In this document: in pieces, positions 30,729 to 35,398 of the stretch
Numbering within the stretch: position 1 is the first letter of the stretch
How the letters are laid out: the number at the start of each line of letters is the position of its first letter
NCBI GenBank assembly: GCA_035461305.1
Contig: DATHVN010000118.1
Span: 1 to 38,958 of the forward strand
DNA: 38,958 nucleotides
Source of the DNA: Euzebyales bacterium
Lineage (GTDB): Bacteria; Actinomycetota; Nitriliruptoria; Euzebyales; JAHELV01
Direction: 5' to 3'
The notes under the pieces: generated by a model
What the model was told of the DNA's origin: nothing
What the model saw: the letters and a program-made list of their open reading frames with translations, nothing else
Database searches by the model: none
Translations under genes and position numbers: made by a program

Positions 30729-31598
30729 ATGCAGGTACCTGCACCGTTCGAGTACGCGCGAGCCACGAGCGTCGACCATGCGCTCGCGCTCCTCGCCGAG
30801 CGTGGTGAGGAGGCGCGGATCATCGCAGGCGGGCACAGCCTGCTGCCGATGATGAAGCTGCGCCTGGTGCGCCCGGAACTGCTGATCGACATCAACGACT
30901 GCGTCGACCTCGACCACATCACCGAGGACGGCGACACCCTGCGGATCGGTGCGCTGACGCGGCACGCCGCGCTGCTCGCATCGGACACGATCGGCCGCCT
31001 GGTGCCAATGATGGTCGACGCCGAGCACGTGATCGCCGACCCGGTCGTGCGCAACCGGGGCACGATCGGTGGCTCACTGTGCCAGGCGGACCCCGGTGAG
31101 GACCTGTCGACCGTTTGCGATGCCATGTTCGCCGAGGTCGTCATCCGCGGTCGCGACGGCGAGCGCACCGTCCCGATGGACGACCTCCACCGGGGGCCGT
31201 ACGAGACAGCGGTCGAGCAGGACGAGATCATGACAGAGATCCGCATCCCGGTGCGTCCTGGCGCGGGCAGCGCCTACGAGAAGGTCGAGCGCCGCATCGG
31301 TGACTGGGCGATCGCCGCTGCCGGCGTGTCGGTCTGGATGACCAATGGCACGATCGACGACGTCGGCATCGGGTTGACGGCTGTCGGGCTGGACGACGGA
31401 CTCGCTACGGCCGCGCAGGACGCGGTGCGGGGACGGGCGCCCGACGAGGACCTGTACGCGGAGGCGGGCAAGCTCGCCGCGGAGCAGTGCGATCCCGTGG
31501 ACGACCAGCGTGGCTCGGCGACGTACAAGCGACATCTGACCGCGGAGCTGACGACGCGCGCACTGCGCCGTGCCGTGGAGCGCGCCCGGACCGCGTAG
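30729..31598 (+). CDS. coxM: Carbon monoxide dehydrogenase medium (FAD) subunit
   Basis: A 289-aa FAD-binding subunit of a molybdenum hydroxylase. ATG 30729 has GGAGG at 30715-30719. FAD motifs are RIIAGGHSLLPMMKLRL and RNRGTIGGSLCQADPGEDLS, both characteristic of CoxM/CutM. VERRIGDWAIAAAGVSVWM and GSATYKRHLTAELTTRALRR mark the C-terminal domain. It passes electrons from the iron-sulfur subunit to the quinone pool. It heads the canonical order coxM-coxS-coxL; the gap to coxS is 11 bp. Confidence 0.95.
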   Translation: MQVPAPFEYARATSVDHALALLAERGEEARIIAGGHSLLPMMKLRLVRPELLIDINDCVDLDHITEDGDTLRIGALTRHAALLASDTIGRLVPMMVDAEHVIADPVVRNRGTIGGSLCQADPGEDLSTVCDAMFAEVVIRGRDGERTVPMDDLHRGPYETAVEQDEIMTEIRIPVRPGAGSAYEKVERRIGDWAIAAAGVSVWMTNGTIDDVGIGLTAVGLDDGLATAAQDAVRGRAPDEDLYAEAGKLAAEQCDPVDDQRGSATYKRHLTAELTTRALRRAVERARTA

Positions 31599-31609
31599 GA
31601 GGGAACGCG

Positions 31610-32128
31610 ATGGATGTGACCCTGACCGTCAACGGCGTCGAGCATCAGCGCGACGTCGAGCCCCGCATGCTGCTGGTCCACTTCCTGCGCGACGAGCTCG
31701 GGCTGACCGGCACGCACTGGGGTTGTGACACCAGCAACTGCGGCACCTGCGTGGTGCTGATCGACGGCGAGCCCGTCAAGAGCTGCACGACGCTGGCGGC
31801 GATGACCGTCGGCCATGAGGTACGCACGGTCGAGGGACTCGCACAGGACGGCGAGCTCGACCCGGTGCAGCAGGGGTTCATGGAGCACCACGGGCTGCAG
31901 TGCGGGTTCTGCACCCCCGGCATGATGCTGACGGCCCGCGCGCTGCTCGACGCCAATCCCGACCCGTCAACCGCCGAGATCCGCGAGGCGATCAGCGGGC
32001 AGCTGTGTCGTTGCACCGGCTACGCGACCATCGTGCGCTCGATCCGCTGGGCCGCCGAGCACGGCGGCGGAGACGAAGCCACCACGCCCGCGACGCCCGA
32101 GGCGCAGCAGCAGGAGGTCGGATCGTGA
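31610..32128 (+). CDS. coxS: Carbon monoxide dehydrogenase small (2Fe-2S) subunit
   Basis: A 172-aa subunit with two [2Fe-2S] clusters. ATG 31610 has AGGAGGGA upstream. The N-terminal plant-ferredoxin cluster is held by GCDTSNCGTCVVLIDGEPVK and the cysteine in SCTTLA; the C-terminal cluster by LQCGFCTPGMMLTARALLD and ISGQLCRCTGYATIV. All eight cysteines are present. The C-terminus has a 20-residue tail rich in Glu, Thr and Gln. The stop overlaps the coxL GTG start (GTGA). Confidence 0.96.
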   Translation: MDVTLTVNGVEHQRDVEPRMLLVHFLRDELGLTGTHWGCDTSNCGTCVVLIDGEPVKSCTTLAAMTVGHEVRTVEGLAQDGELDPVQQGFMEHHGLQCGFCTPGMMLTARALLDANPDPSTAEIREAISGQLCRCTGYATIVRSIRWAAEHGGGDEATTPATPEAQQQEVGS

Positions 32129-34491
32129 CGACGGCACCCGAGCAGGAGCGGCCCATCGGCTTCGGGCGGCTCAAGCGCAAGGAGGACCCGCGTTTCGTCC
32201 GCGGGCACGGCACCTACATCGACGACATCGTCCTGCCAGGCATGCTGCACGGCGCGATCCTGCGGTCGCCCGTCGCGCATGCCCGGCTCACCTCGATCGA
32301 CACGAGCGAGGCCGTCGCGCACCCGAAGGTGCGGGCGGTGGTCACCGGCGCTGACCTCGAGCCGCTGGGCCTGGCGTGGATGCCGACGCTGTCGCACGAC
32401 ACCCAGTCCGTGCTGGCGACCGACAAGGTGCGCTTCCAGGGACAGGAGGTCGCGTTCGTCATCGCCGACGACCGGTACGCCGCGCGTGACGCCCTCGAGC
32501 TGATCCACGTCGAGTACGACGTCCTCGACCCCGTCATCGACCCGCACCACGCGCTCGACGAGGACGCGCCGGTCATCCGCGACGACTTGGAGGGCAAGAC
32601 CGACAACCACATCTTCGACTGGGAATCGGGCGACGCCGAGGAGTGCGACCGCGTCTTCGCCGAGGCCGACGTCGTCGTCACGCAGGAGATGGTCTACCCG
32701 CGCGTGCACCCCGCGCCGCTGGAGACGTGTGGCGCGGTCGCCGACTACGACCAGATCACCGGCAAGCTGACCCTCTACGAGACGACGCAGGCACCCCACG
32801 CACACCGGACGCTGTACGCGATCGTCGCGGGCATCCCCGAACACAAGATCCGGGTCATCTCGCCCGACGTCGGTGGCGGGTTCGGCGGCAAGGTCGGCAT
32901 CTACCCCGGGTACGTGTGCGCGGTCGTCGGCTCGATCCTGACGGGCAGGCCGGTGAAGTGGGTCGAGGACCGCACGGAGAACCTGACGTCGACGGCGTTC
33001 GCACGCGACTACCACATGACCGGTGAGATCGCGGCGACGCGCGACGGCACGATCCTCGCGGTGCGCACGACCGTGCTGGCCGACCACGGCGCGCACAACG
33101 GCACGGCCCAGCCGACGAAGTACCCGGCAGGGTTCTTCCACGTGTTCACCGGCAGCTACGACCTGGAGGCTGCGCACTGCAAGGTGACCGGCGTCTACAC
33201 CAACAAGGCACCCGGTGGAGTGGCCTACGCGTGCTCGTTCCGGGTGACCGAGGCGGTGTACCTGGTCGAGCGGATGGTCGACCTGCTGGCCGCCGAGCTG
33301 AGGATGGATCCGGCCGAGCTGCGCATGCGCAACCTGATCCAGCCCGACCAGTTCCCCTACACCACCAGGACGGGGTGGGAGTACGACTCGGGCGACTACC
33401 CGACGACGCTGCGCAAGGCGCTGGCCATCGCCGGTTACGACGACCTGCGGCGCGAGCAGGCCGAGCGGCGCGAGCGCGGCGAGCTCATGGGGATCGGTGT
33501 GGGCTTCTTCACCGAGGCGGTGGGCGCCGGGCCGCGGCGGCACATGGACATCATGGGGCTCGGCATGGCCGACAGCTCCGAGGTCCGAGTGCACCCGACT
33601 GGCAAGGCCGTGGTGCGGCTGTCGGTGCAGACGCAGGGGCAGGGCCACGAGACGACGTTCGCCCAGATCGTGGCCGAGGAGCTCGGCATCCCACCCGAGG
33701 ACATCGACGTCGTCCACGGCGACACCGACCAGACACCGTTCGGGCTCGGCACCTACGGCAGCCGGTCGACGCCGGTCAGCGGCGCCGCGGTGGCCGTCAC
33801 GTCCCGCAAGGTGCGTGACAAGGCCCGCGCGATCGCCGCCGGGATGCTCGAGGTCAGCCCGGACGACCTGGAGTGGGAGAAGGGACGATTCTTCGTCAAG
33901 GGCGACCCCGACAGCGCCAAGACCATCGCCGAGATCGCGATGGCGGCCCACGGCGCGGCCGACCTGCCCGACGGCATCGAGGGCTCGCTCGAGGCGATGA
34001 CCACCTACAACCCGCCGAACCTCACCTATCCCTTCGGGGCATACATCTGCGTGGTCGACATCGACCCGACGACCGGCGAGGTCACGGTCCGCCGGTTCGT
34101 CGCGGTCGACGACTGCGGCACGCGGATCAACCCGATGATCATCGAAGGGCAGGTCCATGGCGGACTCGCCGACGGCGTCGGCATGGCGCTGATGGAGCTC
34201 ATCGACTTCGACGAGTCCGGCAACTGCCTGGGTAGTTCCTTCATGGAGTATCTGCTGCCGACCGCCATGGACGTGCCGGACTGGGAGACCGACTACACGG
34301 TCACCCCGAGCCCGCACCACCCGATCGGGGCCAAGGGCGTCGGCGAGTCGGCCACGGTCGGCTCGCCACCCGTGATCATGAACGCCGTGGCCGATGCGCT
34401 GTCGGTGTACGGCGTGCGTCACATCGACATGCCCGCGACGCCGTCGAAGGTGTGGGAGGCGATCCACGCGGCGACGGCCGGCGACGGCTAA
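32125..34491 (+). CDS. coxL: Form I aerobic carbon monoxide dehydrogenase large subunit (Mo-Cu)
   Basis: A 788-aa catalytic subunit that oxidises CO at a [CuSMoO2] centre. The diagnostic form I loop AYxCSFR is present as AYACSFR (residues 367-373; 33223-33243) with the copper-ligating cysteine at 370; form II enzymes have AYRGAGR here. Other marks: RLKRKEDPRFVRGHGTYIDD, RVISPDVGGGFGGKVGIYPG, QTQGQGHETTFAQIVAEELG (pterin-cytosine-dinucleotide site) and GAKGVGESATVGSPP with the catalytic Glu at about 741. GTG 32125 overlaps the coxS stop. Length is as expected for the family. Role: atmospheric or trace CO oxidation for energy conservation, since no Calvin-cycle genes are seen in the window. coxD, coxE and coxG are not present. 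Confidence 0.97.
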   Translation: MTTAPEQERPIGFGRLKRKEDPRFVRGHGTYIDDIVLPGMLHGAILRSPVAHARLTSIDTSEAVAHPKVRAVVTGADLEPLGLAWMPTLSHDTQSVLATDKVRFQGQEVAFVIADDRYAARDALELIHVEYDVLDPVIDPHHALDEDAPVIRDDLEGKTDNHIFDWESGDAEECDRVFAEADVVVTQEMVYPRVHPAPLETCGAVADYDQITGKLTLYETTQAPHAHRTLYAIVAGIPEHKIRVISPDVGGGFGGKVGIYPGYVCAVVGSILTGRPVKWVEDRTENLTSTAFARDYHMTGEIAATRDGTILAVRTTVLADHGAHNGTAQPTKYPAGFFHVFTGSYDLEAAHCKVTGVYTNKAPGGVAYACSFRVTEAVYLVERMVDLLAAELRMDPAELRMRNLIQPDQFPYTTRTGWEYDSGDYPTTLRKALAIAGYDDLRREQAERRERGELMGIGVGFFTEAVGAGPRRHMDIMGLGMADSSEVRVHPTGKAVVRLSVQTQGQGHETTFAQIVAEELGIPPEDIDVVHGDTDQTPFGLGTYGSRSTPVSGAAVAVTSRKVRDKARAIAAGMLEVSPDDLEWEKGRFFVKGDPDSAKTIAEIAMAAHGAADLPDGIEGSLEAMTTYNPPNLTYPFGAYICVVDIDPTTGEVTVRRFVAVDDCGTRINPMIIEGQVHGGLADGVGMALMELIDFDESGNCLGSSFMEYLLPTAMDVPDWETDYTVTPSPHHPIGAKGVGESATVGSPPVIMNAVADALSVYGVRHIDMPATPSKVWEAIHAATAGDG

Positions 34492-34501
34492 GGGGGCTGA
34501 C

Positions 34502-35398
34502 ATGGCCCGGTTCGCGGTGACGGAGCGGTCCGCCGAGCTCGTCGCGGCCGGGGTACCGCACGTGCGCGCGACCGTGGTCCGCGCCGAGCACCCGACCAGC
34601 GTGCACGCCGGCGACGCGGCGGTCGTGCACGCCGACGGGACCATCGAGGGCTTCGTCGGGGGCACGTGTGCCGAATCGTCGGTGCAGGTGCACGCCCGCG
34701 CCGCGCTCGACAACGGCGAGCCCCTGCTGCTGCGGATCCTGCCCGGCGTCGAGGGCATGACCACCGAACATGGCGCGGTCACGGTGTCCAACCCGTGCCT
34801 GTCGGGCGGCGCCGTCGAGATCTTCCTCGAGCCGCTCGCACCACCCGCGCGGCTGGTCGTGGCGGGCGACACACCGATCGCCCAGGCACTGGTCGACCTG
34901 GCCGGTCCCCTCGGGTTCACCTCCGAGGCGACGACCGCTCCGATCGAGGTCGGCGCCGACGTCGCCGCGGTGGTCGTCGCGTCGCACGGCCGTGGTGAGG
35001 AGCAGGCCTTGACCGCCGCGCTCGAGGCGGGGGTGCCCTACGTCGCGTTCGTCGCCAGCCATCGGCGGGGGAGCGCCGTGCTCGACGGGCTCGACGTGGA
35101 GGACGCGGCGCGCTCGCACGTGTCGGTGCCGGCCGGGCTCGACATCGGCGCCCGCACCGCGCCCGAGATCGCGCTGTCGATCCTCGCGGAGCTGGTCGCG
35201 TCGCGCCGGTCGCAGCGGGCGGGTCTCGCCGAGGGCGTCGCGCCCGACGCCATGTCCGCGCCGCCGGGTACGGCGGTCGACCCGATCTGCGGCATGACGG
35301 TGCTCATCACCGACGACACCGTCACCGCCACGGTCGACGGCGAGACCGCGTGGTTCTGCAGCGCGGGGTGCCGGGACAGCTGGGTCGGCGCCCACTGA
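34502..35398 (+). CDS. XdhC/CoxF-like molybdenum-enzyme maturation protein fused to a YHS domain
   Basis: A 298-aa protein ten bases after coxL, clearly in the cox operon. Residues 10-110 are the XdhC_CoxI N-terminal domain (PHVRATVVRAEHPTSVHAGD, GTIEGFVGGTCAESSVQVHA, NPCLSGGAVEIFLEPL) with the conserved GGTCAE cysteine. Residues 115-235 form the C-terminal Rossmann-like domain (ARLVVAGDTPIAQALVDLA, YVAFVASHRRGSAVLDGLDV, GLDIGARTAPEIALSILAEL). Residues 257-296 are a YHS domain: AVDPICGMTVLITDDTVTAT and AWFCSAGCRDSW with cysteines C-G-M and C-x3-C. XdhC-like proteins protect and insert the sulfurated molybdenum cofactor; YHS domains occur in heavy-metal ATPases and copper-handling proteins. 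A joint role in building the Mo-Cu site is inferred. ATG 34502 follows GGGGG. Confidence 0.9.
   Translation: MARFAVTERSAELVAAGVPHVRATVVRAEHPTSVHAGDAAVVHADGTIEGFVGGTCAESSVQVHARAALDNGEPLLLRILPGVEGMTTEHGAVTVSNPCLSGGAVEIFLEPLAPPARLVVAGDTPIAQALVDLAGPLGFTSEATTAPIEVGADVAAVVVASHGRGEEQALTAALEAGVPYVAFVASHRRGSAVLDGLDVEDAARSHVSVPAGLDIGARTAPEIALSILAELVASRRSQRAGLAEGVAPDAMSAPPGTAVDPICGMTVLITDDTVTATVDGETAWFCSAGCRDSWVGAH

Follow-up and report, generated by a model that had tools for sequence, protein, structure and literature searches.

A YHS domain on CoxF as a putative copper module for form I CO dehydrogenase in a Euzebyales bacterium

In this study, a stretch of 38,958 nucleotides of Euzebyales bacterium DNA (the window) was analyzed. 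A gene directly behind the structural genes of form I CO dehydrogenase (CODH) encoded a CoxF-type maturation protein with a C-terminal YHS domain. The protein is probably a YHS-bearing CoxF whose YHS domain serves as a putative copper module for the Mo-S-Cu site of form I CODH. Aerobic CO dehydrogenase is globally important for the removal of atmospheric CO.

All features of the operon lay on the forward strand. The FAD subunit gene coxM (30729..31598) matched FAD_binding_5 with 157.6 bits and CO_deh_flav_C with 73.8 bits, and its putative start was the ATG of MQVPAPF. The [2Fe-2S] subunit gene coxS (31610..32128) matched Fer2_2 with 112 bits and Fer2 with 29.8 bits. The molybdenum-copper subunit gene coxL (32125..34491), with a predicted GTG start overlapping the coxS stop, scored 1376.6 bits with TIGR02416 (cut-off 991.15) and carried the form I motif AYACSFR. 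The coxF frame (34502..35398) was free of stops and gave 298 aa with an XdhC_CoxI domain, an XdhC Rossmann domain and a YHS domain. The coxF gene was thus encoded with form I coxMSL; its ATG followed the end of coxL after a 10-base gap, with an SD-like GGGGG immediately 5′. A convergent ATP-dependent DNA ligase gene was found 3′ of coxF. A search for promoter and terminator patterns found none, and comparison with defence families gave no match. The genes coxD and coxE and a YHS-less XdhC gene were located on another contig of the same genome, apart from the form I operon (L122, G000:C123:1-9000), where they followed the end of another molybdenum large subunit.

Both XdhC domains of the window CoxF exceeded the curated Pfam cut-offs. 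The XdhC_CoxI domain (residues 14–78; 34541..34735), with GGTC, scored 59.5 bits with PF02625 (cut-off 24.3), and the XdhC Rossmann domain (XdhC_C, residues 118–231; 34853..35194) scored 63.3 bits with PF13478 (cut-off 29.7). C56 in the first domain was invariant in 111/111 YHS-bearing and 10/10 YHS-less CoxF. Between the two domains was a CxSxG motif (C99, S101, and G103; 34796..34810), whose C99 was kept in 121/121 CoxF; the published putative Cu motif contains this invariant Cys (PMC4240915). The full-length model had a pLDDT of 93.2 and a pTM of 0.84, and its fold matched two solved structures, 2we8 (M. smegmatis Rv0376c homologue; E 2.3e-14) and 3on5 (BH1974). The variable linker before the YHS domain (35195..35266) was the least confident part of the model, low at residues 241–260 (pLDDT blocks of 63 and 79). 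The within-genus dN/dS of the linker was 0.52–1.95, not clearly purifying; that of the YHS codons was 0.13–0.24, indicating purifying selection. Since the linker was both least certain in the model and drifting in sequence, it may be a flexible tether.

The YHS/TRASH domain (35267..35395) comprised the stretch VDPICGMTV...WFCSAGC. The window CoxF scored only 14.5 bits with the YHS profile PF04945, under the cut-off of 30.3, and the TRASH-like DUF7576 scored better. PF04945 was matched by 48 of 57 aligned homologues at E ≤ 0.01, and orthologue tails scored, for example, 99.4 and 46.7 bits. The window CoxF contained the ligand pattern D-P-x-C ... C-x3-C. Its putative ligands, D260 (35279–35281), C263 (35288–35290), C286 (35357–35359), and C290 (35369–35371), were invariant in the 57-homologue alignment, where mean column identity was 40%. 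Among 111 YHS-bearing CoxF, they were conserved in 108, 110, 110, and 111 proteins, respectively. When the tail was modeled alone (pLDDT 98), the best fold matches were all ribosomal L24e with TM of 0.60–0.69 and weak E-values of 0.3–2, so that the TRASH fold was assigned by model. The YHS domain of the window CoxF is genuine although weak by Pfam, and it is secured by its relatives.

Some variants of the tail were observed. A CoxF at L014:1303-2391 (reverse strand) had two tandem YHS domains. In the form I coxL operon of Deinococcus sp. AJ005 (L035:7983-9041), the length of the YHS domain was kept, and the Asp and two Cys ligands were replaced (SPVDG...FTCANC).

The spread of the fusion was investigated across 396 genomes from the window's phylum. 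The CoxF family was detected by protein search in 67 genomes and form I coxL in 57. Of the 53 genomes with a match spanning the YHS part, 49 also had form I coxL (Fisher p = 3e-49), and a chance association was thereby ruled out. CoxF was encoded directly downstream of form I coxL on the same strand at 52 of the 59 form I coxL in these genomes; this count was based on coxL and was free of YHS-pattern bias. Several of the other seven lay near contig ends. One genome among them (G261) had CoxF 3.5 kb off on the opposite strand, and G092:C55 and G189:C13 were second form I coxL copies in their genomes.

A collection scan, which used the YHS-motif pattern among others and is therefore uninformative on how often CoxF is YHS-less, yielded 80 named fusion loci. 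These were from Actinomycetota, Chloroflexota, Thermomicrobiota, Armatimonadota, Acidobacteriota, Verrucomicrobiota, Eremiobacterota, Bacteroidota, and Thermoplasmatota. Plasmid records added the fusion in Deinococcus, Halobacteria, and Burkholderiales; YHS-bearing CoxF occurred in at least 10 bacterial and archaeal phyla. A rare or chance fusion was ruled out by this wide occurrence. The upstream coxL had the form I motif at 66/80 loci, usually within ~100 bases. A further eight loci had an upstream coxL fragment with 57–68% identity, some cut by the contig end and some with coxD/coxE between. In total, 74/80 fusion loci had form I coxL, whole or as a fragment, on their upstream side, immediately adjacent in nearly all cases, and form II coxL was beside the fusion at none of the 80. 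The remaining six loci were L043, L049, L054, L083, L096, and L118. Form I coxL and CoxF occurred in exactly the same 19 plasmid records, and six of these CoxF carried a YHS tail, one of them degenerate.

Two of the remaining six loci had unusual surroundings or architecture. In a Chloroflexi MAG (L043:9001-10149), a CoxF-YHS with two YHS stretches was flanked by esterase and MazG/tetrapyrrole methylase genes, with no cox gene within 9 kb. In a Thermoplasmata archaeon MAG (L049:2143-3996), a 618-codon frame consisted of a MobA-like transferase, both XdhC domains, and YHS, so that one chain united a cofactor-making enzyme, its chaperone, and a metal tail.

The specificity of the fusion was examined by reading 60 further XdhC loci in the same genomes. 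Among them, 21 were with form II coxL (YRGAGR) and about 15 with another xanthine-dehydrogenase-like large subunit; YHS was found on XdhC at none of these 21 and about 15 loci. The four YHS-bearing XdhC in the 60 stretches were all CoxF, with either form I coxL or a contig-cut coxL as neighbour. YHS as a general feature of XdhC was ruled out by this comparison. Both coxD and coxE were present in 18/21 form II clusters. Since these two genes are common to form II clusters and were on another contig in the window's genome, CoxF-YHS is the form I-specific accessory.

In a tree of the XdhC part, all CoxF, including that of Oligotropha carboxidovorans (Afipia), formed one clade with an SH-aLRT of 100, and CoxF was split from other XdhC by 122 vs 11 rows. 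The window CoxF was in this clade, apart from CoxI and other XdhC. YHS was present on every deep CoxF branch, with at least five changes along the tree. From these sequences, YHS is probably the common and ancestral state of CoxF, and at least five losses are indicated, with the alphaproteobacteria among the lineages affected; the count is approximate, since the tree was quick and the gene is short. YHS-less CoxF beside form I coxL was found in alphaproteobacteria, including O. carboxidovorans, and in scattered actinobacteria. In these actinobacteria, the YHS-less CoxF gene stopped cleanly before the next gene. A stand-alone YHS substitute was not found in alphaproteobacterial cox operons; a 40-aa ORF after Marivivens CoxF was without the YHS motif. 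Two YHS-less actinobacterial CoxF on the forward strand, L021:1501-2322 and L025:1501-2244, ended in GGCCGHGSG and HCAAHGH, respectively, and these Cys/His tails look like makeshift metal-binding tails.

A comparison of alphaproteobacterial CoxF tails (L037:8965-9807, L184, L185, L186, L187, and L189) showed that the proposed histidine acid phytase motif RHGQRQS of O. carboxidovorans CoxF was only partly kept in the nearest relatives and was missing from the remaining tails. It was set aside as a CoxF feature, as it was not conserved in most alphaproteobacterial tails examined. The motif was located where other CoxF have the linker to YHS.

In the preliminary description of the window, three domains had been read in one frame 10 bases after coxL, and the protein had been placed in form I CODH assembly. 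Translation, profiles, and relatives confirmed the former, and the form I coxL together with the CoxF clade supported the latter. The proposed co-occurrence of the fusion with form I coxL, to the exclusion of form II, was borne out by the genome and locus counts. The fusion had also been presented as unusual, but it is common and probably ancestral in CoxF. A need for YHS everywhere does not hold, since CoxF without YHS occurs beside form I coxL, and YHS is thus not strictly required in every lineage.

The need of CODH copper for CoxF was reported only for O. carboxidovorans, the sole experimental model (PMC4240915). CODH of its coxF mutant had 0.04 Cu vs ~1.5 in the wild type, with normal Mo and near-normal sulfane sulfur; this F::km mutant was also without CoxE protein, so the copper phenotype was not from CoxF alone (PMC4240915). 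Copper is thought to enter the sulfurated Mo (Mo-SH) of already folded apo-CODH in this organism (PMC4240915). The YHS domain of an adenylyl cyclase from Mycobacterium phlei was activated by Cu2+, whereas Zn, Fe(II), Fe(III), Cr, Co, and Ni had no such effect; its likely ligands are Asp and three Cys (PMC4626032). A copper role is therefore well founded on the need for O. carboxidovorans CoxF and the copper-specific behaviour of this YHS. The earlier suggestion of copper assembly stood to this extent, although a "single-chain factory" exceeded the evidence. Its further proposal, that the molybdenum cofactor held by the XdhC part receives the copper, disagreed with copper entry into folded apo-CODH in O. 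carboxidovorans.

In the proposed mechanism, the YHS domain would bind one copper ion, probably Cu(I), via Asp260, Cys263, Cys286, and Cys290. The flexible linker would let the YHS domain swing, and the XdhC body would dock on apo-CODH whose Mo already has a sulfido ligand. Copper might then be handed to the Mo-SH/coxL-Cys site, perhaps with Cys56 and Cys99 of the XdhC body as relays, and its arrival would close the Mo-S-Cu cluster.

Other readings of the YHS domain were considered. It may act as a copper sensor or gate, with CoxF releasing or engaging apo-CODH only when copper is present and the domain keeping its own copper. The M. phlei cyclase YHS, the only experimentally studied YHS found, works as a copper sensor (PMC4626032), and the YHS losses suggest dispensability, as expected of a gate. 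This reading is nevertheless doubtful; copper delivery accounts just as well, or better, for the tight restriction of the domain to a Mo-Cu enzyme and for the lack of copper in CODH of the coxF mutant. A structural zinc site, or a docking module that binds CoxF to CODH or CoxE, in either case unrelated to copper, would agree with the structural use of related TRASH folds in ribosomal L24e; the nearest solved sequences to the tail were L24e and YHS in phenol hydroxylase. According to a passage of PMC4626032 that cites it, the TRASH site of L24e held Cd in a solved structure. A docking module, however, need not be confined to a copper enzyme, and one YHS domain was copper-specific among several metals (PMC4626032), making this explanation improbable.

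The three YHS cysteines could also relay persulfide sulfur for Mo sulfuration instead of inserting copper, as XdhC proteins handle sulfurated molybdenum cofactor (PMC2997495). That is highly improbable: CODH of the coxF mutant had near-normal sulfane sulfur and almost no copper (PMC4240915), and XdhC of other enzymes of the sulfurated family were without YHS. Copper delivery by the YHS domain stays the preferred reading. A broader version, in which YHS is the ancestral dedicated copper donor domain of CoxF and was lost in the O. carboxidovorans lineage, has about an even chance of being right. The published copper-binding and phytase motifs would then describe an exception, because the model organism belongs to a lineage of YHS loss.

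The conserved CoxF YHS offers a concrete candidate, with four residues, for the copper route to the Mo-S-Cu site, and YHS-bearing CoxF occurs in tractable hosts such as Mycolicibacterium. CoxF-YHS is also a possible genome marker for the copper-containing form of CODH. O. carboxidovorans CoxF is not typical of CoxF, and readers of the published biochemistry should be cautious. A literature search for XdhC-YHS, or for YHS with CODH, found no description, within a coverage smaller than all literature. The parts were known already; for the union of XdhC and YHS, we found no description in the literature searched.

Compared with known systems, the window CoxF was closest to the 280-aa CoxF of O. 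carboxidovorans, which has the same two XdhC domains with the C56 and C99 positions kept and is likewise encoded in a form I coxMSL operon. The CxSxG motif is the CoxF counterpart of its putative Cu motif MCPSHGTM, and 2we7 has TCGG at the aligned position. O. carboxidovorans CoxF is without YHS, and its gene follows coxD and coxE, whereas the window coxF directly follows coxL. The XdhC/PucA/PaoD-type chaperones and CoxI (solved structures 2we7/2we8 and 3on5) share the XdhC_CoxI domain and Rossmann fold with CoxF. They form a separate clade, have SG-x-C where CoxF has GG-x-C, are without YHS, and their genes adjoin form II or xanthine dehydrogenase-like genes. The YHS domains of the M. phlei cyclase and of Cu-ATPases have the same ligand set D-P-x-C ... 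C-x3-C as CoxF (PMC4626032), and the cyclase YHS is a C-terminal fusion like the CoxF tail. Those domains are fused to an enzyme or a transporter, whereas the YHS domain of CoxF is fused to a molybdenum-cofactor chaperone.
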